A DNA stretch of 20,027 nucleotides from a virus, in IMG/VR virus record IMGVR_UViG_3300012931_000086, positions 1-20,027 of that record. One strand, given 5' to 3'. A program made the translations under genes and the position numbers. This document shows positions 1,841-19,847 of this stretch, one piece after another (the first letter of the stretch is position 1; each line of letters begins with the position of its first letter). The notes beneath the pieces are model-generated. The model made no database searches. It saw only the letters and a list, made by a program, of their open reading frames with translations, and was not told the DNA's origin.

Positions 1841-4504
1841 ATGACCACAGAGACATTAGTAAAAACCCATTTCAGTCCGGCCCGGGCCAATCATGCAATA
1901 GAGTTCATAGAGAATCTCGAACTTACCACCGGAGAGTGGAAGGGACTGAAATTTAAACTCCTGCCCTGGCAGAAGAAAATCATCTCAGATATATTCGGGA
2001 CTCTGAGACCAAACGGTTACCGGCAGTATAACACGGTTTATATCGAGATTCCAAAAAAGAACGGGAAAGCTCTTGCACTTGACACACCATTGCCCACGCC
2101 TACTGGCTGGACAACAATGGGTGATATTAAAATTGGGGACACTTTATTTGACGAACAAGGGAAACAGTGCCATGTTACATTTGTAACTGAGATACAAAAC
2201 AACCATCCCTGTTATGAGGTTATTCTTGAGGATGGCAGCCGTATTGTAGCCGATGAATCCCATTTATGGTTAACATCAACCTACAAACCCTGGTTAAAAA
2301 CAAAATTACACACTACTAAAGAAATATCCGAAACTCTAGTCTATCAGAAAGGGCATAATCATAAAATAGCCAACCCCGAAGCTCTTGAATTACCTGATGC
2401 GGAATTACCGATAGACCCATACATTTTGGGTTATTGGTTGGGTGATGGCAGGAGTGATGATGCCGAATTCAGTATGGATGAGGCGGACTTTGATAATTTT
2501 GCCTCACAAATAGAAGTTGCCGGATATTATGTTGCCACTCCAAAAAAAGATTCTCGGCGCCTGAATACATTAGCTGTGCGTGTATCTTTATCTGCAGTTG
2601 GGGGGGCAAATAATAACGGGAAACCCACATTAAAAGGAGCATTAAGAAATTTAGGGTTATTGGATAATAAACATATCCCGGCTATGTATTTAAGGTCATC
2701 CCATAAACAGAGGTTAGCACTTTTACATGGATTAATGGACTCCGATGGCTATGTTTCAAAGGCCGGTCAATGTGAATTTACAACTACATCTGAGCGAATA
2801 AGAGATGGCATACTTGAATTATTACTGTCTCTTGGTTTTAAACGATCGTTAAAAATTGATACTGCGAGATTGTACGGCAAGGATTGCGGCTTAAAATATA
2901 GAATACAATTCTGGGCTTATCAAGGAAACCCTGTATTTAAACTCAATCGTAAATTAGAACGCCAAAAACCTCTACCTTTAAAAAACACCAGAAACGCTTT
3001 TAGAAAAATAATTGCTGTTAATCCGGTTGAATCAGTACCAGTTAAGTGTATTCAGGTTGATAGTCCTTCTCATTTATATCTGGCGGGTACTGGGATGGTT
3101 CCGACTCATAATACGGAGCTCGCCGCTGCTGTAGCTTTATATTTACTTTTCGGTGACAATGAACCTGGTGCCCAGGTCTACTGTGCAGCCGCCGATAAAG
3201 ATCAGGCGGGACTTGTCTACGGTGCTGCCGCCCAAATGATAAGGACTTCCCCTGCATTACTAAAACGTTGCAAGGTCAATGACAGCCGTAAAAGAATCTG
3301 GTTACTCAATGACAATGCTTTCATGCAGACGCTATCGTCTGAGGTTAATACTAAACACGGCCTGAATGTCTCCGGGGTCGTAATCGATGAGTTGCACGCC
3401 CACCCTGACCGGAAATTATATGAGGTGCTGACAAAAGGCTCCGGCGATGCCCGCCGGCAACCAATGAACTTTATCATCACCACAGCCGGGATAGATCGTA
3501 ATTCGGTTTGCTGGGAACTGCACGAGAAAGCCAGGGGAATCCTGAACGGTACATTAGAAGACCCGACATTCTATCCGGTGATTTTTGGTCCGCCCGACGA
3601 TGAAGCCGGTACTGATTGGGATTGGACATTAGAGGAAAACTGGCTAAAAGTAAATCCCTCATTGGGTCATACAATCGCAATTGATAAAGTCCGTGATGCT
3701 TTTCGTGAAGCTCGGCGTAAAGTCGAAGAGGAAAATACATTTAAACAACTCCGCCTTAATATCTGGGTGAAGCAATCAATGCGGTGGATCAAACTCACGG
3801 ACTGGGATAAATGCGTGGGAACAGTAAACCTAGAAGAGCTCAAAGGCAAAACCTGCTATTCCGCATTTGATCTGTCTTCGAGTATAGATTTAACCGCTCT
3901 GGCTCATGTTTTCCCGGTTGATGGCAAATACAAGGTTTTGATGCGTTTTTGGATTCCCGAAGGTGTTATAGACGAAAAGGAAAAGAAAGATAAAGTACCT
4001 TATCGCCGGTGGATACGTGAGGGATATATTCAAACGACACCGGGTAATTTGATAGATTACCAATTTATCCGGAAGCAACTAAACGATGACCGGGCAATTT
4101 TTGATATGCGCGAACTGGCCTATGACCGCTGGGGAACGGTTAAGCTCTTGACTGAGCTCCAAGACGATGGATTCGTAAATACAGAAAAAGAGGCCGGAGA
4201 CGGCCACCCTTTATTAGTACCGTTTGGTCAGGGTTATGCCTCGATGTCCCCAGCGGCAAAGGGGTTTATTGATATCCTGCTGGGCGGATTTTTAGAACAT
4301 GGTAATAATCCTGTGTTGAGGTGGAATGCCGATAACGCAGTAATTACTCAAGACCCGGCAGGGAATATTAAACCGGACAAATCCAAGGCCACACAGCGTA
4401 TTGATGGTATAGTCGCTCTCGTGATGGCCACGGATAGAGCCATTAGGCACAATAACGAAAATGAACCCTCAATTTACGAAACTTCTGAAATCAAGGTATT
4501 CTAA
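1841..4504 (+). CDS. Terminase large subunit precursor, interrupted by an intein
   Basis: The 887-residue precursor splits into a 539-residue terminase (extein residues 1-76 and 425-887) and a 348-residue intein. After splicing, PKKNGK joins TELAAA and restores the Walker A loop, so packaging ATPase activity depends on splicing. Walker B is VVIDELHAH at 513-521, with D516 and E517. The C-terminal RNase H-like nuclease shows AFDLSSSIDLTAL (D677), AYDRWGT (D762) and DGIVALVMATD (D855 or D865) as probable metal ligands. The length without the intein fits the Terminase_1 (HK97-type) family. The protein cuts concatemeric DNA and drives it through the portal. It follows the small subunit without spacing and precedes portal by 14 bases. 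The extein sampled at 3361-3480 is about 54% GC, higher than the intein. Confidence 0.96.
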   Translation: MTTETLVKTHFSPARANHAIEFIENLELTTGEWKGLKFKLLPWQKKIISDIFGTLRPNGYRQYNTVYIEIPKKNGKALALDTPLPTPTGWTTMGDIKIGDTLFDEQGKQCHVTFVTEIQNNHPCYEVILEDGSRIVADESHLWLTSTYKPWLKTKLHTTKEISETLVYQKGHNHKIANPEALELPDAELPIDPYILGYWLGDGRSDDAEFSMDEADFDNFASQIEVAGYYVATPKKDSRRLNTLAVRVSLSAVGGANNNGKPTLKGALRNLGLLDNKHIPAMYLRSSHKQRLALLHGLMDSDGYVSKAGQCEFTTTSERIRDGILELLLSLGFKRSLKIDTARLYGKDCGLKYRIQFWAYQGNPVFKLNRKLERQKPLPLKNTRNAFRKIIAVNPVESVPVKCIQVDSPSHLYLAGTGMVPTHNTELAAAVALYLLFGDNEPGAQVYCAAADKDQAGLVYGAAAQMIRTSPALLKRCKVNDSRKRIWLLNDNAFMQTLSSEVNTKHGLNVSGVVIDELHAHPDRKLYEVLTKGSGDARRQPMNFIITTAGIDRNSVCWELHEKARGILNGTLEDPTFYPVIFGPPDDEAGTDWDWTLEENWLKVNPSLGHTIAIDKVRDAFREARRKVEEENTFKQLRLNIWVKQSMRWIKLTDWDKCVGTVNLEELKGKTCYSAFDLSSSIDLTALAHVFPVDGKYKVLMRFWIPEGVIDEKEKKDKVPYRRWIREGYIQTTPGNLIDYQFIRKQLNDDRAIFDMRELAYDRWGTVKLLTELQDDGFVNTEKEAGDGHPLLVPFGQGYASMSPAAKGFIDILLGGFLEHGNNPVLRWNADNAVITQDPAGNIKPDKSKATQRIDGIVALVMATDRAIRHNNENEPSIYETSEIKVF
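2069..3112 (+). other. Intein with LAGLIDADG homing endonuclease, class 3-like, in terminase Walker A
   Basis: The insertion lies exactly between K76 and T425 of the precursor, inside the GKT of the ATP-binding loop. It begins with Ala, not Cys or Ser, and ends in THN before an extein Thr. Intein residues: block A ALALDTPLPTPTGW at 1-14; block B SRIVADESHLWLT with H65 and W67; LAGLIDADG motif 1 ILGYWLGDG at 119-127 (D126); motif 2 LLHGLMDSDG at 218-227 (D224); block F VKCIQVDSPSHLYLAG with C327; block G VPTHN with T346, H347 and N348. W67, C327 and T346 match the Trp-Cys-Thr triplet that defines class 3 inteins, which start splicing from an internal Cys instead of residue 1. Both endonuclease acidic residues are present, so mobility may be intact. 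Sampled lines are 30-40% GC, lower than the adjoining terminase. Confidence 0.93.
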
Positions 4505-11911: not shown

Positions 11912-12156
11912 CACCCCGTGAATTTCAGGCATTGGTAGACCGCTATAAAGACGAACAGGACTGGTTAAATTACAGGTCAGCCCTGATTGCCTCAATAATA
12001 GCCAGTGCCTCGACCGGCAAGGAATTCCAGCCGAAAGAGTTCATGCCGGATAATTTCAAGGAATCAACTGTAATCCAGACATCCGACCAAATGGCCGCAC
12101 AACTGAAGGCGATCACACTACTCACGGGCGGCAAAGTGGAGACAAAACATGTCTAA
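11821..12156 (+). CDS. Tail assembly chaperone extension (T-like part of a -1 frameshift fusion)
   Basis: This frame is open from after a stop at 11782-11784 and has no good start codon near its beginning. Translated through the proposed slip it reads DWAFLWSFAVYNLKISEVSFLALTPREFQALVDRYKDEQDWLNYRSALIASIIASA, which is the classical second chaperone pattern (helix, LTPREF, then a long basic helix). The fusion is 109 residues of the short form plus 111 of this frame, 220 in total, a usual GT size. A GTG at 11893 could serve as a separate start but would discard the conserved WAFLWSFAVY part. The final codons overlap the tape measure start by 8 bases. The fused protein binds the tape measure and recruits tube subunits. 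Confidence 0.85.
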   Translation, partial: SSNPEPTDWAFLWSFAVYNLKISEVSFLALTPREFQALVDRYKDEQDWLNYRSALIASIIASASTGKEFQPKEFMPDNFKESTVIQTSDQMAAQLKAITLLTGGKVETKHV

Positions 12157-12790
12157 AATGGGCGAACTCTCTGTATTAATCCGAGGCAATAACCAGCTCA
12201 CACCGGAACTCAACACCGTTAATGCCTCGTTGAAGTCGTTTAGCAGTACGCATAAGAGCACGACCGACATAACCGAATATAACACCAAACTTTCAAACCG
12301 TTCCTTTAGTCAGATGAAATCCGCCGTCCGGGAGCTGGCTAATGGCGTCGGTTTTCTCGGTTCGACTTTTATCGGCCTCGGCTCATCGATGGAGAAATCG
12401 ACCAACAAGACGACTCAAAACATCGGGCAAATGGTATTAATGGCCGGTACCATCATGACGGCGGTGGCCAGCTCGGTGCAGTTTGTTTCGGCTATTTCAA
12501 AAATGGTCTCCGCTCTGAATAAACTGCGCAGTGCCCAGATACTTGCTCAGGCGTTTTCCGGGCCGGGCGGTTGGGGCATGCTGGCAGTCGGCGGATTGGT
12601 GGCAGGCGGTACGATAGCCACGGTCAGTGCTATTTCCAAGGCCTCGAGTGAAAAGACCACCTCCACGGCGGGAAATAGTGTCACCGTAAATGTTGCCGGT
12701 AGCGTGGTTACTGAAAAGAAATTAACCGAGGTTGTGCGCCAGGGAATTGTTACCGGGCAGAGTCGAAACTATACGAGCGGGATTAAATGA
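12149..12790 (+). CDS. Tape measure protein, unusually short
   Basis: The protein has 213 residues, whereas siphovirus tape measures usually have 600-2000. Position (right after the chaperones) and layout still point to it: an N-terminal GELSVLIRGNNQLTPELNTVNASLKSFSSTH block as seen at the start of tape measures; a helical, glycine- and serine-rich middle with hydrophobic stretches at about 91-120 and 138-163; and a C-terminal VTVNVAGSVVTEKKLTEVVRQGIVTGQSRNYTSGIK, typical of their ends. Nothing indicates truncation: start (GGAG 7 bases before ATG) and end are both normal. At about 1.5 angstrom per residue it would set a tail of only about 30 nm. The stop overlaps the next start (ATGA). Confidence 0.75.
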   Translation: MSKMGELSVLIRGNNQLTPELNTVNASLKSFSSTHKSTTDITEYNTKLSNRSFSQMKSAVRELANGVGFLGSTFIGLGSSMEKSTNKTTQNIGQMVLMAGTIMTAVASSVQFVSAISKMVSALNKLRSAQILAQAFSGPGGWGMLAVGGLVAGGTIATVSAISKASSEKTTSTAGNSVTVNVAGSVVTEKKLTEVVRQGIVTGQSRNYTSGIK

Positions 12791-12978
12791 AGAAAATTCT
12801 ATCTAACATCTCGACCATACTGCTATTTATCATCTTCTTTATTCCCACATTGCTCGCTATGGCGTTTAACCATAAATTCCGGGGGCGCATCTTAGGTATG
12901 CAGCCGGAGAAGGTTCACTATCTCGAAAATTGCGAAGTCGTTTTGAAATCAGGCAATAATACACGGAGGCTCAAATGA
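12787..12978 (+). CDS. Small single-pass membrane protein after the tape measure
   Basis: The 63-residue protein starts with MKK and a hydrophobic segment at about residues 9-28 (STILLFIIFFIPTLLAMAFN), followed by a basic, polar tail (HKFRGRILGMQPEKVHYLENCEVVLKSGNNTRRLK). This is the layout of a type II or III single-pass membrane protein or an uncleaved signal anchor. No lipobox is seen. It is fused to its neighbours by ATGA overlaps at both ends (12787-12790 and 12975-12978), so it is translated in the tail operon. I do not recognise the family. A role in membrane contact during infection or in superinfection exclusion is possible but only a guess. The ribosome binding site is weak, as expected for a coupled start. 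Confidence 0.65.
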   Translation: MKKILSNISTILLFIIFFIPTLLAMAFNHKFRGRILGMQPEKVHYLENCEVVLKSGNNTRRLK

Positions 12979-13523
12979 ATATCTTAGACCAAATTAAAAC
13001 TGCGGTGGCTCTGGTAGAGTTAAAATCAATCCGGAAACATGATGCCCTACTGGTGCTGGAGGATAAAAGGACAGGCAGGCGCCGCCTCATCTGGGGCCGG
13101 AATATCGTAACGACCGCCGGTAATACCTGGTATGCCCAGAAGGCTTGTGGCCAGACGCCCACAAACGCCTTTACCAGCCTATATCTGGCAACGGCGGGCC
13201 CGTCCACTCCCGCGGTTGGCGATGATTATGATGATTTTACTGTACAATCCGGATCTGAAAAAGCGGTCACCTCCGGCTATCCCAAGGTACCTGATACCGA
13301 CTCGGATAATACCGGGCTCGGGGCAACGGTGGTAAGCTGGAAGTTCGAATACGCCACCAGTGACGGCCCGTTCGCAACCGCTATCACCCATTCATTTATA
13401 TCAATTGCCTCCGCCACTACCGGCAGCCCCATTCTCAACTCGTATAAATGGAGCAGCAGCTGGACGAAGGATGTCAGCACCTCGGCTAAGGTATTCGCAA
13501 ATCACACTGTTCTGGGGAGTTAA
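12975..13523 (+). CDS. Putative tail structural protein
   Basis: The protein has 182 residues with no family I can name with certainty. The N-terminal part (1-40) is helical and basic, followed by RRRLIWGRNIVTTAGNTWYAQKACGQTPTNAFTSLYLATAG. The rest is rich in Thr, Ser, Gly and Asp with beta-strand patterns, and its layout (GRNIVTTAGNTWYAQ then FTSLYLATAGPSTPAVGDDYDDF) recalls uncharacterised virion proteins encoded near tail tips in environmental phages. It lies between the tape measure and the repeat-bearing protein, so a distal tail or tail-tip role is likely. GGAGG at 12965-12969 gives a strong ribosome binding site 5 bases before the ATG, which overlaps the stop of the preceding gene. Confidence 0.6.
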   Translation: MNILDQIKTAVALVELKSIRKHDALLVLEDKRTGRRRLIWGRNIVTTAGNTWYAQKACGQTPTNAFTSLYLATAGPSTPAVGDDYDDFTVQSGSEKAVTSGYPKVPDTDSDNTGLGATVVSWKFEYATSDGPFATAITHSFISIASATTGSPILNSYKWSSSWTKDVSTSAKVFANHTVLGS

Positions 13524-13526
13524 TTA

Positions 13527-14864
13527 ATGGCTCAGACATTCCATCCGGTAACGCCTGTTGAATGCACACCCGGTTCAGCTTCGGCGTGGACTGATGTCGA
13601 CCTTGATTCTTATGTGTCCGGTCTTGGCAGTGATGTCACTGGCGTACTATTACACTTCGCTAATAATAATAGCAGCAGTGATTATTATGCCGGAATGCGT
13701 AAAAACGGCAGCACCGACGATAGACGCAATAAGTACCTCCCTGCTTACAGACATTGCATGGGGGCAATAGGTGTTGATAGTAATCACATTTTTGAAATAT
13801 ATGTTAGTGACATAGCTTATATTGATGTTTATATAGTCGGTTATACAACGACAGGTGTAACGTTTTTTGATAATGGTTATGATAAATCACTTTCAGCAAC
13901 CGGAGCCTGGACTGACGTTGACTGCGCGAGTGTCGCCCCCAATGCCATAGGTTTAATTTTTGAAGTGATTTCCTCATCAACCACAAATTATAGTTTTGGT
14001 ATGCGTAAAAACGGCAGCACCGATAATCGAACTAATAGTATATCCTTTCGCACCGTAGTAGGATTTATCGTTGGCTGTGATACGTCGCAGATTTGCGAGG
14101 GTTATATAGGTAATGCAGTAATTGATTTTTATCTGGTTGGGTATATTACTGATGGAGCTGTTTTTAATACAAATGCAACCGATATATCCATGTCCACTAC
14201 CGGTAGTTATGCCGATCTAACAGCGTTACCTGCTGGGGCAAAAATGGGATTTGTAGAGGTTATCGGGTCTTCATATTATAATTGGGCTTTACGTAATAAG
14301 GGTGACTCTGAGGATTTATATTACAGAGTTTTTTACCATTCTTTTGCGATCGTTGGTTGTGATAGCAGTGGAGTAATGGAAGGCAAAATTAGCAATACTG
14401 GCTGCGATTACTTTGTCGTAGGTTATGCGATCGGAGCGACATCTATAACAGAAATCATGAATGAGGCCATCGGTGTCACTGAATCGCATGTCAAGCGCAG
14501 TTATTCTAACCGCCTCATGGCCGAAACTGTAGGTATCTCTGAGGGCTTTGTCAAACGTGGATATATCAATCAAATCATTAACGAGACTATAGGGGTAACG
14601 GAATCATTTTTACTAGACAGTTATACCATCCTTGTAAAACTGATGAATGAGACTATTTCCGTCCTTGATTCTATGACTCGCCGGGCGGTCTTCGTGAAAG
14701 TCTTTAATGAAACCCTCTCCGTTCTCGATTCGGTTTATGTCTGGAAGATCAAGAATATTTTTGTCTACCTGAAAACCAGAAGCCGGTCTGTGTATCTATC
14801 TGTTTACTCAAAGACCGCCAACCTCAAATTCCGCAGTAAAAATATTAATTTGCAGGAAAAATAA
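13527..14864 (+). CDS. Repeat-bearing virion surface protein (three domain copies plus a C-terminal repeat array)
   Basis: The 445-residue protein has two parts. Residues about 21-106, 128-206 and 228-301 are three copies of one beta-rich domain, recognisable by A-x-W-TDVD, GMRKNGSTD (copies 1 and 2; LRNKGDSED in copy 3), a VGCD or VDSN turn, and a closing D-x-Y-x-VGY. Copies 1 and 2 share 23 identical bases. Residues about 310-412 contain five copies of about 20 residues with the core NETIGVTES (N/A-E-x-x-x-V-x-D/E-S). The last 30 residues are basic. No enzyme motif is visible. It is probably an adhesive or length-variable tail surface protein. GGGGAG precedes the ATG by 7 bases. Confidence 0.7.
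   Translation: MAQTFHPVTPVECTPGSASAWTDVDLDSYVSGLGSDVTGVLLHFANNNSSSDYYAGMRKNGSTDDRRNKYLPAYRHCMGAIGVDSNHIFEIYVSDIAYIDVYIVGYTTTGVTFFDNGYDKSLSATGAWTDVDCASVAPNAIGLIFEVISSSTTNYSFGMRKNGSTDNRTNSISFRTVVGFIVGCDTSQICEGYIGNAVIDFYLVGYITDGAVFNTNATDISMSTTGSYADLTALPAGAKMGFVEVIGSSYYNWALRNKGDSEDLYYRVFYHSFAIVGCDSSGVMEGKISNTGCDYFVVGYAIGATSITEIMNEAIGVTESHVKRSYSNRLMAETVGISEGFVKRGYINQIINETIGVTESFLLDSYTILVKLMNETISVLDSMTRRAVFVKVFNETLSVLDSVYVWKIKNIFVYLKTRSRSVYLSVYSKTANLKFRSKNINLQEK
13587..14429 (+). repeat. Three tandem domain copies in the 13527-14864 gene
   Basis: Copies lie at about 13587-13844, 13908-14144 and 14208-14429. A 23-base stretch in copy 1 (13695-13717) is identical in copy 2 (14001-14023), 306 bases apart, so the duplication is in frame (102 codons). 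Copy 3 is more diverged at the protein level and lacks this DNA identity. Confidence 0.8.
14454..14762 (+). repeat. Five short protein repeats of about 20 residues (NETIGVTES-like)
   Basis: Residues about 310-330, 331-350, 351-372, 373-392 and 393-412 of the protein each hold a core like NEAIGVTES, AETVGISEG, NETIGVTES, NETISVLDS and NETLSVLDS, followed by about ten residues rich in hydrophobic and basic residues. Protein similarity is clear while DNA identity is low, so this is an old array. Confidence 0.75.
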
Positions 14865-15194
14865 ATGGCTACGATAACGACAAATCTTAAAATCAGCCAG
14901 AACGATTACGGCAAGCCGATCACGTTCACCCTCTATGAATCGGACGGCACGACCGCTAGAAATCTAACCGGCTATACGGCGACCTTCAAGGTCTGGACGC
15001 CAGGGAGCCCCACTAGTGTGATTTTAAGCGGCGTCTGTACGGTCGACAGTGAGGCTGGGGGAATTTGTCATTATCAACCTGTAGCTGGTGATTTCCCAAC
15101 GGTCGGACTATATAATGCCGAGATCGAACTGACAGCGAGCGGTGTCGTAGATAGTATAATTCCATTCACTCTGGAAGTCCAGGAGAGCGCATAG
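14865..15194 (+). CDS. BppU N-domain-like baseplate/tail-tip protein
   Basis: The 109-residue protein matches, as remembered, the N-terminal domain of the phage baseplate upper protein (BppU_N): LKISQNDYGKPITFTLYESDGTTARNLTGYTATFKVWTPG near the start, then SGVCTVDSEAGGICHYQPVAGDFPTVGLYNAEIELTASGVVDSIIPFTLEVQE. The pattern of two beta sheets with a YxPxxGDFxxxGxYxAEIELT segment is the key. In phages this domain docks receptor-binding proteins on the baseplate. Here it stands alone, without the usual C-terminal extension, suggesting an adaptor between the 445-residue protein and the large tip protein that follows. AGGA precedes the ATG by about 8 bases, and the next gene begins right after the stop. 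Confidence 0.7.
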   Translation: MATITTNLKISQNDYGKPITFTLYESDGTTARNLTGYTATFKVWTPGSPTSVILSGVCTVDSEAGGICHYQPVAGDFPTVGLYNAEIELTASGVVDSIIPFTLEVQESA

Positions 15195-18179
15195 ATGACT
15201 ATAATTGCCAACTGGTCACATATTAATACCCTTAACGCCAGTAACGGCTATTACAGAGAGCGGTGGACGATATACGCAAGCGGTCGTTACTGGGTTGTTT
15301 ATATTTATGACGGTAGCACGTATGTGATAAGCTCAACCGATGGCATCAACTGGGGTTCGCCGGTGCTAATCACAGCCAATTCGGTTGATGATGTGGCTTT
15401 TCGCGGTGCATATATAGGTTATATCAGGCATCCAGACCTACAGAATTATACCTGGCGGATAGGCGGTCTTAATTCAGGTGGTACAATAACCTGGCAGGCG
15501 AACGAACAAACATATAGTGGTATCAACTGGCTATCCAGTTCCCTTTGTGCTTTTGATGACAGCTATAATTTGCAAATCCTGTACGGAGACAAAATAGGCA
15601 CATGGACTGATGGAGAATACCGTTCTACTAAGGGCTTTTACGCGATTGTCGGCAATGCCCCTTCTTGGTTTACTCATACGAGTGCTAGTAACTTATCTGA
15701 CTATCTGGAACTAATTATACCCCTGGCTACCGGTGAAAATTATTATACGTATCATCAGGCTAATGTGCTGTGGGGAAGATTGGGTTCGACCGAGGATTCA
15801 ATAGAATCTGATAACACGTCAAATTATAGTGCAATATCAGATTTAAACAGTAATATTTACCTCGCTTATTCCCGGACTTCAGGTAATAATTTTTATATTC
15901 GTGATTATGCGACTGGCGTTTGGACAAGCTCTCTGATCCCTGGCACCAGTAGCACGGATTATATTAAACTGACGTTTAATGAAACCGATAATACCCTCTG
16001 GGCCTTAAGATATTCAGGCGGCGTTTTATATTACGCCACCTATGACATTGCGACAGCAACGTGGGGGTCTTGGACTGAGGTATCAGGGTATTTGGGCAAT
16101 TTATGCTGCTTGATGCAGAATGAACGATTAATCATGACCTATGCGGATAGTAACGGTGTATATGCTCTGACCATGACCTCTGCATCGATTACGACCCTTC
16201 CCGCCACCGCCATCAAATTTACTCAGGCAACACTTAACGGAGAGCTGACCGGCGAGTCGGGAGAGGTCTATTTCGAGTGGGGCTTAACTAACAGCTACGG
16301 CAATACCACCGGCTCAATGACTATCAGTCCCGGCCTTTTCGTCTCGACTAACACCGGACTGACCAGGAATACACTTTATCATTTCAGGGCGGTTGCTGTC
16401 GTAAATGGCACTACTCTCTATGGCTCTGATCTGACCTTTAGCACCTGCGATGTCATTGTCGAGATGGCTTTCGGTTATCCCGTCTTCTCCGATCCCGAAG
16501 CATCTCCCAGCATCTGGACGGACGTGAGTAGTGAGTTGATGGGACTGGATACCGATCGCGGACGGATGCACGAACTCGACCGGATCGAGGCCGGTACCGC
16601 CGTTATCAAGATGAACAACGAGTCCGGGAACTGGTGGAGAAATAACACCGCCGGGGCTTATTACGGCACCAGCGGCAATGTGAAGCCCCTTACCCTTACC
16701 AGAGTCAAAGCGGCATATAACGGCACCACATATCCGCTATTTTACGGCTATATTGAGAAGACCCCCCCGAGCTGGCTGCTTGACGGCGGCTATGTGCCGG
16801 TTGTCGAAATTCAACTCGTGGATTTCTTTAAGAGCTTTGCGAGGTATAGTTTTACGATTACCTCGGCGAGAACTGCTGAATTATCGGGTCTTCGCTTTTC
16901 TTGGATACTCGATCAGCTCGCTATAAAGGCCGGGCTTGCCAATTGGCCTGCTAATTTAAAAGATATTACCGCCGGTACAGGAATAGTAGAAGTTGCTGAA
17001 CTGGCAGCCGGTACTTATAATGTCCTGGAGCAGCTCCAACTTACCGCCGAGGCCGAGGGCGGGCTTGTGATGATAGCACCTGATGGGAAGGTTACATTTC
17101 AAGACCAGACGGCTCGATATACGGTTACGGAGTTTAAATCCGTACAATCTACCTTTAGCGATGATGGCTCTGATGAGCCGTATATTTTACCCAAATTATC
17201 TGATGACGACAGTTTTATCTATAATAATGCCCATATCAAAGGTGATGCAGTTGACCAATCCCTTGCCAGCACAGCACAGGAAACTCAAGGGCCGCGACTC
17301 TGGGAGAAAACAGACTCTCTAATAAATAACACTGATGACGCGTTCGATCAGTGTTATGTCATTGTCGGTCGATATTCCGACTCGATATTCCGCTGCGAGT
17401 CATTATTAATCGATCCCGAAGCCGACCCAGTCAACCTGTACCCGATAATATTCGGGTATGACATTTCCTACCGCATCAACCTTGAACTCAACAGCACCCG
17501 CAACCCGGCCATGCTGGATCAGGACTATCATATTGAGGGCATCAAGCTGCACTGGACGATGGAAGAGGACTGGACGTGCGAATGGCAGCTGTGGGACGTG
17601 AATAAGTACCGGATATTAAGAATTGCTCATGAGGGTTGGGTTAAGAATGAGGGAGCGGCTTATAACACGGTCCAGGCGGCAGCCACGGGCGTTGATTCTT
17701 TAAATGATAATAACATTGCCGCCGGTCAGGAATATGCCTCTGGACCTCTTTATACTATCTGGCGGGGTTACGGTCAGTGGGATGCTTCCGGTGTTACCGG
17801 AAGTCCGACAGTAGCAGAAGCGTGGGTAGCGGTGCATGATGATTCTGCACTTGTGGTGTCTCGAGATTTTAAGATTGTTATTGTCCCTGGAGGTGTTTCT
17901 TACCCTCTGGATGATGACAGTTATGGTGACTTGGGATCACAAACAACTAATCTGGGAGAGCTGGATATTCTTACTACTACTCCAGCCGGTTGGCACTTCA
18001 TACCGTTAAATGCAACCGGTATCGCTTATTTGAATGTCGGCGGCACTATCGAACTTGGTTTCCGCACGGATAAAGATATTGCAGCCTCCGCTCCAACTGG
18101 TGCCGAGGAAATGCTGGTTATGCAGGGATCAGGACTAACTGAGGATAGCAAAGCTAGGCTGATATTGAGGTTCGCTTAG
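15195..18179 (+). CDS. Large tail-tip protein with propeller-like, FN3-like, hub-like and C-terminal surface domains
   Basis: The protein has 994 residues with four visible parts. Residues 1-335 show repeating YxxxxSTDGxxW and GxWTxx motifs, as in beta-propeller or sialidase-like domains, but no catalytic arginine triad is recognisable. Residues 336-418 (PATAIKFTQATLNGELTGESGEVYFEWGLTNSYGN...LYHFRAVAVVNGTTLYGSDLTFST) form a fibronectin-III-like domain. Residues about 421-800 have IWTDVSSELMGLDTDRGRMHELDRIEAGTAVIKMNNESGNW and TYPLFYGYIEKTPPSW, a tail-tip hub-like region known from siphovirus minor tail proteins. Residues about 805-994 resemble DNRLRE-type surface domains (WRGYGQWDASGVTG...WHFIPLNATGIAYLN). 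It probably builds the tail tip and binds host surface sugars or proteins. It ends 4 bases into a convergent gene. Confidence 0.75.
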   Translation: MTIIANWSHINTLNASNGYYRERWTIYASGRYWVVYIYDGSTYVISSTDGINWGSPVLITANSVDDVAFRGAYIGYIRHPDLQNYTWRIGGLNSGGTITWQANEQTYSGINWLSSSLCAFDDSYNLQILYGDKIGTWTDGEYRSTKGFYAIVGNAPSWFTHTSASNLSDYLELIIPLATGENYYTYHQANVLWGRLGSTEDSIESDNTSNYSAISDLNSNIYLAYSRTSGNNFYIRDYATGVWTSSLIPGTSSTDYIKLTFNETDNTLWALRYSGGVLYYATYDIATATWGSWTEVSGYLGNLCCLMQNERLIMTYADSNGVYALTMTSASITTLPATAIKFTQATLNGELTGESGEVYFEWGLTNSYGNTTGSMTISPGLFVSTNTGLTRNTLYHFRAVAVVNGTTLYGSDLTFSTCDVIVEMAFGYPVFSDPEASPSIWTDVSSELMGLDTDRGRMHELDRIEAGTAVIKMNNESGNWWRNNTAGAYYGTSGNVKPLTLTRVKAAYNGTTYPLFYGYIEKTPPSWLLDGGYVPVVEIQLVDFFKSFARYSFTITSARTAELSGLRFSWILDQLAIKAGLANWPANLKDITAGTGIVEVAELAAGTYNVLEQLQLTAEAEGGLVMIAPDGKVTFQDQTARYTVTEFKSVQSTFSDDGSDEPYILPKLSDDDSFIYNNAHIKGDAVDQSLASTAQETQGPRLWEKTDSLINNTDDAFDQCYVIVGRYSDSIFRCESLLIDPEADPVNLYPIIFGYDISYRINLELNSTRNPAMLDQDYHIEGIKLHWTMEEDWTCEWQLWDVNKYRILRIAHEGWVKNEGAAYNTVQAAATGVDSLNDNNIAAGQEYASGPLYTIWRGYGQWDASGVTGSPTVAEAWVAVHDDSALVVSRDFKIVIVPGGVSYPLDDDSYGDLGSQTTNLGELDILTTTPAGWHFIPLNATGIAYLNVGGTIELGFRTDKDIAASAPTGAEEMLVMQGSGLTEDSKARLILRFA

Positions 18180-18685
18180 TTTACGAAAATAGAGGTTATC
18201 ATCTCAGCTTTTGCATCAGCCAGCCATGTTGATTTTGGGTAATTAGGCGATACTGTTCCGATTATTGCAGTATTCGGTGGGATGCCGACCATTTTTGTCC
18301 CAACCTGAATATCAAGTCTTAAATAACCAGGCTGCTGTTTTTCATCAATTTTAATGATAAATGAGGCTATTCCTTTTTCATCTGACATTATACCTGCATT
18401 TGTGGCTGTAAAATTAGTTAGGCAATATTTATTCGGTTCGGTCTGAATCGTAATCTTGTCCTCATCCCCGGGCCAAACCGGATTAGTCATCGAGACTATC
18501 TTTAGGGGTATATCGGATTTAACAAGTTTCTGAGGTGGCAATTCGTTACCGGTGACTGTTGCATTAATGACAGTTTCCCCGGAAGATGAACTCACTCCCG
18601 CCGCCTCTGCTTTATTTCCACACCCCACAACCGGCGAAAATAATAATATCGAAAGGGTAACTAAAACAATTATTAACTTTTTCAT
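18176..18685 (-). CDS. Putative lipoprotein, reverse orientation
   Basis: I use the ATG at 18685 (169 residues) because AGAGG lies 8 bases upstream; a TTG at 18691 is too close to it. The N terminus is a lipoprotein signal: MKK, hydrophobic core IIVLVTLSILLFSPVV, and lipobox VVGC with C22 as the probable lipid-bearing cysteine. Residues about 55-135 (LKIVSMTNPVWPGDEDKITIQTEPNKYCLTNFTATNAGIMSDEKGIASFIIKID) look like an immunoglobulin-like domain. The protein would be anchored to the outside of the host membrane. It is on the reverse strand, A+T rich, and follows a small membrane protein gene in one transcript. Surface lipoproteins in such cassettes often block a second phage infection, but that is an inference. 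Its 3' end overlaps the tail-tip gene by 4 bases. Confidence 0.75.
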   Translation of the reverse strand: MKKLIIVLVTLSILLFSPVVGCGNKAEAAGVSSSSGETVINATVTGNELPPQKLVKSDIPLKIVSMTNPVWPGDEDKITIQTEPNKYCLTNFTATNAGIMSDEKGIASFIIKIDEKQQPGYLRLDIQVGTKMVGIPPNTAIIGTVSPNYPKSTWLADAKAEMITSIFVN

Positions 18686-18702
18686 TTTCAAAACCTCTTC
18701 GC

Positions 18703-18963
18703 TTAAATATCAAAACGTTTTTTCACGTCATCATCGGAATAATTTCTTTTATAATTTTCTTTTCTATATCTTTCTTCTTCGGTCAATTTATCCAGACCGG
18801 CTAATATTAATGTGGATAATATACCGAAAAAGAATGCGAAAGCAACCCAGCCGCCGCTGCTCCGGTTTTTACTTTCAGCCAGTCGGTGGCATAGAAACAT
18901 ATTAGCTATCCAGGTAGCTATTCCGTATATAATTCCGAATATTAACCAAAAATCCATGGCCAT
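18703..18963 (-). CDS. Small two-pass membrane protein, reverse orientation
   Basis: The 86-residue protein has two hydrophobic segments, about residues 5-25 (FWLIFGIIYGIATWIANMFLC) and 37-57 (GGWVAFAFFFGILSTLILAGL), with a short charged loop between (HRLAESKNRSS) and a very charged C terminus (TEEERYRKENYKRNYSDDDVKKRF). A strong GGGGGA ribosome binding site lies a few bases before the ATG at 18963. It is the first gene of the reverse cassette and lies 17 bases before the lipoprotein gene. The shape resembles superinfection-immunity and other small phage membrane proteins, but I do not assign a function. Sampled lines in the cassette are about 23-35% GC, lower than the tail genes around it. 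Confidence 0.7.
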   Translation of the reverse strand: MAMDFWLIFGIIYGIATWIANMFLCHRLAESKNRSSGGWVAFAFFFGILSTLILAGLDKLTEEERYRKENYKRNYSDDDVKKRFDI

Positions 18964-18981
18964 TATCCCCCTTGAATCTTA

Positions 18982-19010
18982 ATTAAAAGGCTCTTATTGT
19001 CTTTTGTCAA
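18982..19010 (-). promoter_or_regulatory. Sigma70-type promoter for the reverse cassette
   Basis: Read on the reverse strand, TTGACA (19010-19005, perfect -35) is followed by a 17-base spacer and TTTAAT (18987-18982, five of six matches to TATAAT). The predicted start near 18975 would give a leader of about 12 bases carrying the GGGGGA ribosome binding site of the membrane protein gene at 18963. Consensus and spacing are near ideal for a housekeeping promoter, so the cassette can be expressed without phage late regulators, for example in a lysogen. Confidence 0.75.
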
Positions 19011-19035
19011 TAGTACGTTGGTTTAAAGGTAAATT

Positions 19036-19245
19036 ATGGATAAAAACGCTCTATATCATTATCTGAACAACAAAGGATACAAAAACACCAATGATGTCGG
19101 GGTAGCTTCCGGCGTGGCTGCCCTGGACGCCAATACTCAACTGCCGACTGACTACGGTCAGCATATGCTCTACGACGGCGGGGTAATCGGTATTACCGAG
19201 GCCGGAGACGATCCGGCAATTATTTATGATGGAGGCGCGATCTAA
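19036..19245 (+). CDS. Short tail fibre-like protein
   Basis: The 69-residue protein contains VASGVAALDANTQLPTD (residues about 23-39), a pattern common in phage tail fibres that contact other fibre parts (SGVASLDANTKLP). The rest repeats the motif YDGGVIG and YDGGAI. It is too short to be a full fibre; it may be a fibre adaptor or the remaining fragment of a longer gene. An AAAGG site precedes the ATG by about 7 bases. The stop overlaps the following start (TAATG), so both are probably coupled. It resumes the plus-strand tail region after the reverse cassette. Confidence 0.55.
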   Translation: MDKNALYHYLNNKGYKNTNDVGVASGVAALDANTQLPTDYGQHMLYDGGVIGITEAGDDPAIIYDGGAI

Positions 19246-19847
19246 TGTCTACCACGATTCAGACCAAGCGGGGTTCGACTGCTTCATGCGACGGCATTAC
19301 GCCGGCAGCGGGCGAACCCGTATTTGATACGACTCTGAAGCAGTTGCGCATCGGCGACGGTTCTACGGCAGGCGGCAATAAGGCGGCTATGGAGAGCGTA
19401 GGCATCAGCCGGACTTTCCTGGTTAATAACTTTGTTTGCCCGGCACCCGGTACCGATTGGACACCGCAGGTTGAGGGCGTAAAACTGGCAGCCAATCTGT
19501 CAACCAAGAAGTGCTGGCTGCCGATCCCTTTAAAGATAGGCGACATCATCACCGGCTATAAGATCATCGGCGATATGGTAAAAGTGGCTGGTGATACAGT
19601 GACATTTGATTGCAAGTTAGTCCGGGTGAATAAAGCAGACCCGATCACCACGACCGACATTACCAACGGTGCCATCACACAGGTAGCGGCAGACGGAAAC
19701 TTCGACAGCGAAGCCACTCCGGACGATGAAACGGCAGCCACGGACAAACAATACTGCCTGGAGTTGAATGGCAGTACCAGTAACGTGAGTACAACCGAGC
19801 AGATCATTGTTACCGGTGCCGAAATAACAATAACGAGTTTACCGTAA
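19245..19847 (+). CDS. Tail fibre protein with Mtd-N-like/hyaluronidase-type N-terminal domain
   Basis: The 200-residue protein starts with TTIQTKRGSTASCDGITPAAGEPVFDTTLKQLRIGDGSTAGG, the recognisable short beta domain at the start of many fibre and receptor-binding proteins (family pattern of QxKRG...LxxGEPxFxTxTxxLxIGDG). The C-terminal part (about 55-200) is Thr- and Asp-rich with beta-strand patterns such as IGDIITGYKIIGDMVKVAGDTVTFDCKLVRVN, and has no enzyme motif. It probably forms part of the tail fibre. GGAGGC lies about 9 bases before the ATG, inside the previous gene. A holin-like gene follows after a strong ribosome binding site. Confidence 0.7.
   Translation: MSTTIQTKRGSTASCDGITPAAGEPVFDTTLKQLRIGDGSTAGGNKAAMESVGISRTFLVNNFVCPAPGTDWTPQVEGVKLAANLSTKKCWLPIPLKIGDIITGYKIIGDMVKVAGDTVTFDCKLVRVNKADPITTTDITNGAITQVAADGNFDSEATPDDETAATDKQYCLELNGSTSNVSTTEQIIVTGAEITITSLP

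Follow-up and report, generated by a model that had tools for sequence, protein, structure and literature searches.

An orphan, moron-like pair of membrane-protein and lipoprotein genes opposite the tail genes of a bacterial virus

A two-gene minus-strand cassette among late tail genes

The window analyzed here is the 20,027-base stretch of IMGVR_UViG_3300012931_000086, which holds the head and tail module of a virus of bacteria, with genes for terminase, portal, protease, capsid, connectors, and tail proteins and a fibre-type gene with an Mtd_N domain. Its closest annotated relatives by terminase and portal are phages of Clostridia, with approximately 40-50% identity, which does not fix the host of the window phage. 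We found no integrase or repressor within this 20-kb fragment, so that any lysogeny genes of this phage would lie beyond it, and no Rfam family or tRNA in the window.

Two minus-strand genes lie between the tail-tip gene (15195-18179, plus strand, 994 amino acids) on the left and a small fibre-side ORF (19036-19245, plus strand, 69 amino acids) on the right, the latter followed by the fibre-type gene at 19245-19847 on the plus strand, whose Mtd_N domain (PF18454) is a Pfam match. The first-pass annotation had placed two A+T-rich, opposite-strand genes between the tail tip and the fibres, and both ORFs are indeed found there, with GC contents of 36% and 40% compared to 48-53% for the flanking tail genes (38-39% in windows across 18251-19000). 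The membrane-protein gene and the lipoprotein gene are spaced by 17 nt, each is preceded by a Shine-Dalgarno site, and the convergent stop codons of the lipoprotein and tail-tip genes overlap by 4 nt (18176-18179). Codon-usage scores of both cassette ORFs are barely better than those of other frames.

The first gene (18703-18963, minus strand) encodes 86 amino acids, or 84 when read from the ATG at 18957. Since its Shine-Dalgarno sequence AAGGGGG (18967-18973, minus strand) lies 3 nt from the annotated ATG at 18963 and 9 nt from the next ATG at 18957, a spacing that fits the second ATG better, a true start at M3 is plausible. The protein has two hydrophobic segments, and its structure model (mean pLDDT 72) consists of two helices, at approximately residues 3-29 and 38-84, with a basic loop at 25-37 and a highly charged C-terminal helix. 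No match above cut-off was found in Pfam, NCBIfam, PADLOC, or the phrog models, and the superinfection immunity protein Imm (Imm_superinfect) was absent from its Pfam matches up to E = 10; DUF6518 was rejected for a score under the family cut-off. No similar small membrane protein turned up in a motif search across all fetched loci.

The second gene (18176-18685, minus strand) encodes a lipoprotein of 169 amino acids. We take its start to be the ATG at 18685, with AGAGG 8 nt upstream, where the ORF lister extends instead to a TTG at 18691. The N-terminus, MKKLIIVLVTLSILLFSPVVGC, combines the features by which we defined a lipoprotein, namely a positively charged N-terminus, a hydrophobic core, and a lipobox of the form [LVI][ASTVI][GAS]C: the signal peptide spans residues 1-21, the lipobox VVGC contains Cys22, and an SSSS linker is present. 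Among the 83 window ORFs of at least 50 amino acids, it is the only one with both a lipobox and a hydrophobic core. Thus, the pairing of a two-pass membrane protein with a lipoprotein proposed from the first reading is confirmed at the level of these features. The domain after the Ser-containing linker is probably beta-rich; the structure model (pLDDT 35) is too poor for fold comparison.

Like its neighbor, the lipoprotein had no match above cut-off in Pfam, NCBIfam, or PADLOC, which agrees with the earlier statement that neither protein belongs to a nameable family, and the Pfam family of Ltp-type host cell surface-exposed lipoproteins did not match it up to E = 10. The full-length lipoprotein matched phrog_806 (unknown function) with E = 1e-4, but the mature protein remained unmatched up to E = 10; in genomes, the phrog_806 model gave many matches, all to N-terminal stretches, and we read the match as a signal-peptide effect. 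Direct searches of viral contigs and annotated phages returned no relatives of either cassette protein, and plasmids held no homologue of the lipoprotein. Neither protein was found in 398 genomes, which represent one phylum, that of a Lachnospiraceae MAG, and since this phylum need not contain the host, absence there means little. One genome-contig match (L012) was discarded as a chance WPGDEDKI peptide in an unrelated frame, with stops within the aligned stretch. The first-pass annotation had proposed looking for the pair in other prophages, but since no homologue of either protein emerged from these collections, recurrence could not be shown. The kind of cassette is well known, but its two proteins, by sequence, are orphans matching no known family.

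Upstream of the pair, a -35 element TTGACA (19005-19010, minus strand) that matches the consensus is separated by a 17-nt spacer from a -10 element TTTAAT (18982-18987, minus strand), from which transcription would be expected to start near 18975. No other site on either strand of the 20-kb window has 11 or more of 12 matches, compared to 0.42 such sites expected in Markov-1 sequence, and the chance of one in a 110-nt upstream stretch of local composition is approximately 0.002. The sole mismatch is at position 2 of the -10 element, normally A, which is the most conserved base and the one that sigma-70 needs most. A standard promoter scan requires this A and therefore omits the site. We consider the sequence a good candidate promoter. 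The perfect -35 element and 17-base spacing claimed in the first-pass annotation are there, but calling the -10 element near-perfect overstated it, given which base is mismatched; likewise, the word strong describes a consensus match only, one of 11/12 that is unique in the window. Past the lipoprotein gene, no terminator-like site was found on the minus strand from 18720 down to 16500, so a transcript of the cassette would continue into the tail-tip gene in antisense direction.

The cassette site in related phages

To compare the cassette site, we used two sets of relatives. A terminase alignment search gave close relatives, among them G401 and G404. G401 is the closest by large terminase (80% identity, with 80% in the capsid), and its tail module is non-homologous to that of the window; for this reason, the lack of a lipoprotein in G401 was set aside as empty-site evidence. 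G404 shares 59% identity in the large terminase and 37% in the tail tip. A tail-tip domain alignment built from the window and G404 then gave 16 IMG/VR loci, G404 included, with approximately 31-46% identity in the tail tip, none of which is a near-identical sibling.

The cassette was not found in any of these 16 loci with a homologous tail-tip gene, and a minus-strand lipoprotein or membrane pair after the tail tip was seen in 0 of the 15 loci analyzed. Instead, the gene after the tail tip lies on the same strand, mostly no more than about 12 nt from the stop codon or overlapping it. One comparison is with L124, whose tail tip, like that of L123, is 38-45% identical to that of the window. In L124, as also in L123, the tail tip is followed after a 1-nt gap by a 78-aa ORF and then by an Mtd_N fibre gene (PF18454, 1.7e-12), which is the order of the window minus the cassette; the fibre N-termini are significantly similar, while the similarity between the 78-aa ORF and the 69-aa ORF of the window is not significant. 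In L129, the tail tip can be aligned through to its final residue, and the following gene begins 11 nt later, with no cassette in between. Neither cassette protein had a convincing match in any of the fetched loci.

Since the flanking genes are 1 nt (L124) and 11 nt (L129) apart where the cassette is missing, the simplest reading of these alignments is that the cassette is an 856-nt insertion (18180-19035), which the window has and its relatives lack at the junction of the corresponding late genes. Loss of the cassette from all these relatives appears less likely. No flanking direct repeats that could mark transposition were found around it. The first-pass annotation would have been refuted had the two genes been fixed parts of all relatives' tail modules; their absence from the tail-tip relatives shows that they are not.

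G404 also bears on the lifestyle of these phages. On the strand opposite its late genes, it carries a serine integrase, a 180-aa lipoprotein gene, and an HTH-S24 repressor, and since integrase and S24 repressor occur there, the wider group, as judged from its genes, includes temperate phages, which does not by itself prove the lifestyle of the window phage. The G404 lipoprotein gene (L113:16322-16864) resembles that of the window in lying opposite the late genes, in a relative by both terminase and tail tip, but it sits between the repressor and the integrase, and its product has no detectable similarity to the window lipoprotein.

Several other features of the window and its relatives were recorded along the way. 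The large terminase gene (1841-4504) contains an intein at approximately residues 79-424 with a LAGLIDADG-type homing endonuclease domain (PF14528, PF05204), and terminase alignments of approximately 870-880 residues suggest the same intein in G401, G404, and L032. The ORF at the tape-measure place (12149-12790, phrog_28) encodes just 213 amino acids, and tape-measure-like homologues in L124 and L117 have 183-188, which may point to a very short tail or to a kind of gene not yet recognised. Four plus-strand genes at 12787-15194 (63, 182, 445, and 109 amino acids, the last with BppU_N) separate the tape-measure-like gene from the tail tip; since these two genes abut in L117, L124, and L129, the stretch looks like a second insertion. 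Near the left end (14-986), a partial IbrA-like gene of the phosphoadenosine phosphosulfate reductase type is paired with an IbrB-like ParB gene, whose product shares 54-58% identity with copies in numerous phages, and a 97-aa minus-strand ORF (940-1233) of low GC, with a good Shine-Dalgarno site (GGAGG) and no Pfam match, lies between the IbrB-like and small terminase genes. In L124, a 372-aa minus-strand ORF (L124:5835-6953), TnpB-type by eye, interrupts the head-tail module, and the head module of an annotated Syntrophomonadaceae phage is split between terminase and portal by four opposite-strand genes (L028:18654-19854) at what is possibly another moron site.

Candidate roles of the pair

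We consider the cassette very probably an acquired moron, one that would alter the host surface. Because its insertion, composition, orientation, and candidate promoter fit, we describe the pair as an orphan, moron-like cassette. Classically, a moron also has its own transcription terminator, and since none was found here, membership is weakened to that extent. The moron layout seen in the first-pass annotation therefore stands as to the insertion, which is apparent against relatives whose late genes mostly abut at this place, and falls short as to the terminator.

In the explanation we favor, the late tail operon took up a two-gene moron at the junction of tail-tip and fibre genes, in the opposite direction and with ribosome-binding sites and a putative sigma-70-type promoter of its own. 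With the late operon off, as it would be in a lysogen, this promoter (19010-18982) would yield a single short mRNA encoding the two proteins. The 86-aa protein would form a helical hairpin in the cytoplasmic membrane, and the lipoprotein, as suggested by its lipobox and the hairpin, would be exported, lipidated at Cys22, and exposed on the outside of a membrane. In the lytic phase, late transcripts made from the opposite strand would work against the cassette, which would leave its expression mostly to the lysogen. Moron loci typically carry genes antisense to lytic genes (PMC7067206). We regard expression of the cassette in lysogeny as likely.

Once tethered, the lipoprotein may then interfere with a receptor or with the DNA entry of related phages, possibly with the hairpin protein holding or assisting it, a step we propose purely by analogy to Ltp and the mEp lipoproteins. 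In mEp phages, lipoprotein genes in the structural cluster exclude superinfecting phages when expressed (PMC11893012); the phage lipoprotein Ltp blocks DNA injection (PMC3952083), and Cor inactivates the FhuA receptor (PMC11436027). On this analogy, superinfection exclusion is the likeliest function, although one that we assign tentatively, and the whole account, a lysogen-expressed exclusion moron, is our best explanation and one that falls just short of an even call. A more specific version, which we think unlikely, is a two-component envelope exclusion system without a known homologue, in which the hairpin protein anchors or positions the beta-rich lipoprotein to block DNA entry and the antisense cassette is on when the tail operon is off.

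The alternative that fares best, although we find it somewhat doubtful, keeps the same moron layout and lysogen expression but has the pair change the host in some way other than exclusion, through nutrient capture, adhesion, protection from envelope stress, or bacteriocin immunity. Such roles have precedent in lambda lom and bor, which are expressed in the lysogen and serve the host differently (PMC7067206), and the pair has no sequence feature specific to exclusion and matches no known exclusion family. On the other hand, the best tested precedent found for phage lipoproteins encoded inside structural clusters is exclusion (PMC11893012).

It is improbable that the pair acts in the envelope during the lytic phase, either blocking the receptor against re-adsorption of progeny to their own cell or debris or serving as a holin-like or lysis accessory. 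The cassette adjoins receptor-binding genes, the 86-aa hairpin is holin-sized, and small transmembrane genes come after the tail genes in relatives, but the cassette opposes the late operon, has a candidate promoter of its own, and has no endolysin beside it; furthermore, no holin or spanin family matched above noise, and relatives have no equivalent at this site. More improbable still is that the transcript matters rather than the proteins, with a promoter antisense to the tail-tip gene keeping down leakage from the late genes in the lysogen. Salmonella prophage BTP1 offers a known case of antisense RNA in a tail gene (PMC7067206), and the missing downstream minus-strand terminator and overlapping convergent stops would suit such a role, but both ORFs are intact and preceded by Shine-Dalgarno sites, and one encodes a complete lipoprotein signal, neither of which an RNA needs. 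Finally, an assembly artefact joining host DNA into the contig, or chance ORFs in non-coding DNA, would account for a composition unlike the flanks and codon-usage scores just above other frames but is highly improbable, given phage tail genes on both sides, a stop-overlapping junction, and the coincidence on one strand and in one order of a candidate promoter, two Shine-Dalgarno sites, a lipobox, and two transmembrane helices.

Relation to known exclusion and moron systems

Morons that adjoin tail-tip and fibre genes have already yielded exclusion proteins, most of the tested ones coming from enterobacterial or lactic-acid phages. The cassette described here is a candidate with clear boundaries and a comparison to empty sites, from a phage group that has a distinctive tail-tip gene and is known largely through metagenomes, and its site points to where further cassettes may be sought in these genomes. 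If the pair does exclude phages, as in the reading of a lysogen-expressed exclusion moron, it would add an exclusion family without sequence relatives.

By position, the closest counterparts are cor (N15, phi80) and lom (lambda), which are morons beside the tail-tip gene J and are single, outer-membrane-related genes. The window likewise has extra envelope genes between tail-tip and fibre genes, but as an opposite-strand pair, and we found no homology. Lpp of the mEpimmI coliphages has a lipobox and a gene placed among the structural genes, as does the window lipoprotein, but the portion of the report available mentions no membrane-protein partner for Lpp (PMC11893012), and the window lipoprotein is unmatched among annotated phages. 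Ltp of Streptococcus thermophilus phage TP-J34 shares with it the lipid anchor, a Ser-containing spacer, and a C-terminal domain, and is expressed in the prophage state (PMC3952083), which for the window cassette we infer. In contrast, Ltp is encoded in the lysogeny module and acts through a repeat domain, whereas the window lipoprotein matched no Pfam family. The STMMW_20121-type moron loci of Salmonella prophages encode different proteins, and their expression was measured by RNA-seq where ours is deduced, but they resemble the cassette in being antisense to lytic genes, and they have their own promoter (PMC7067206), for which the cassette has a candidate.
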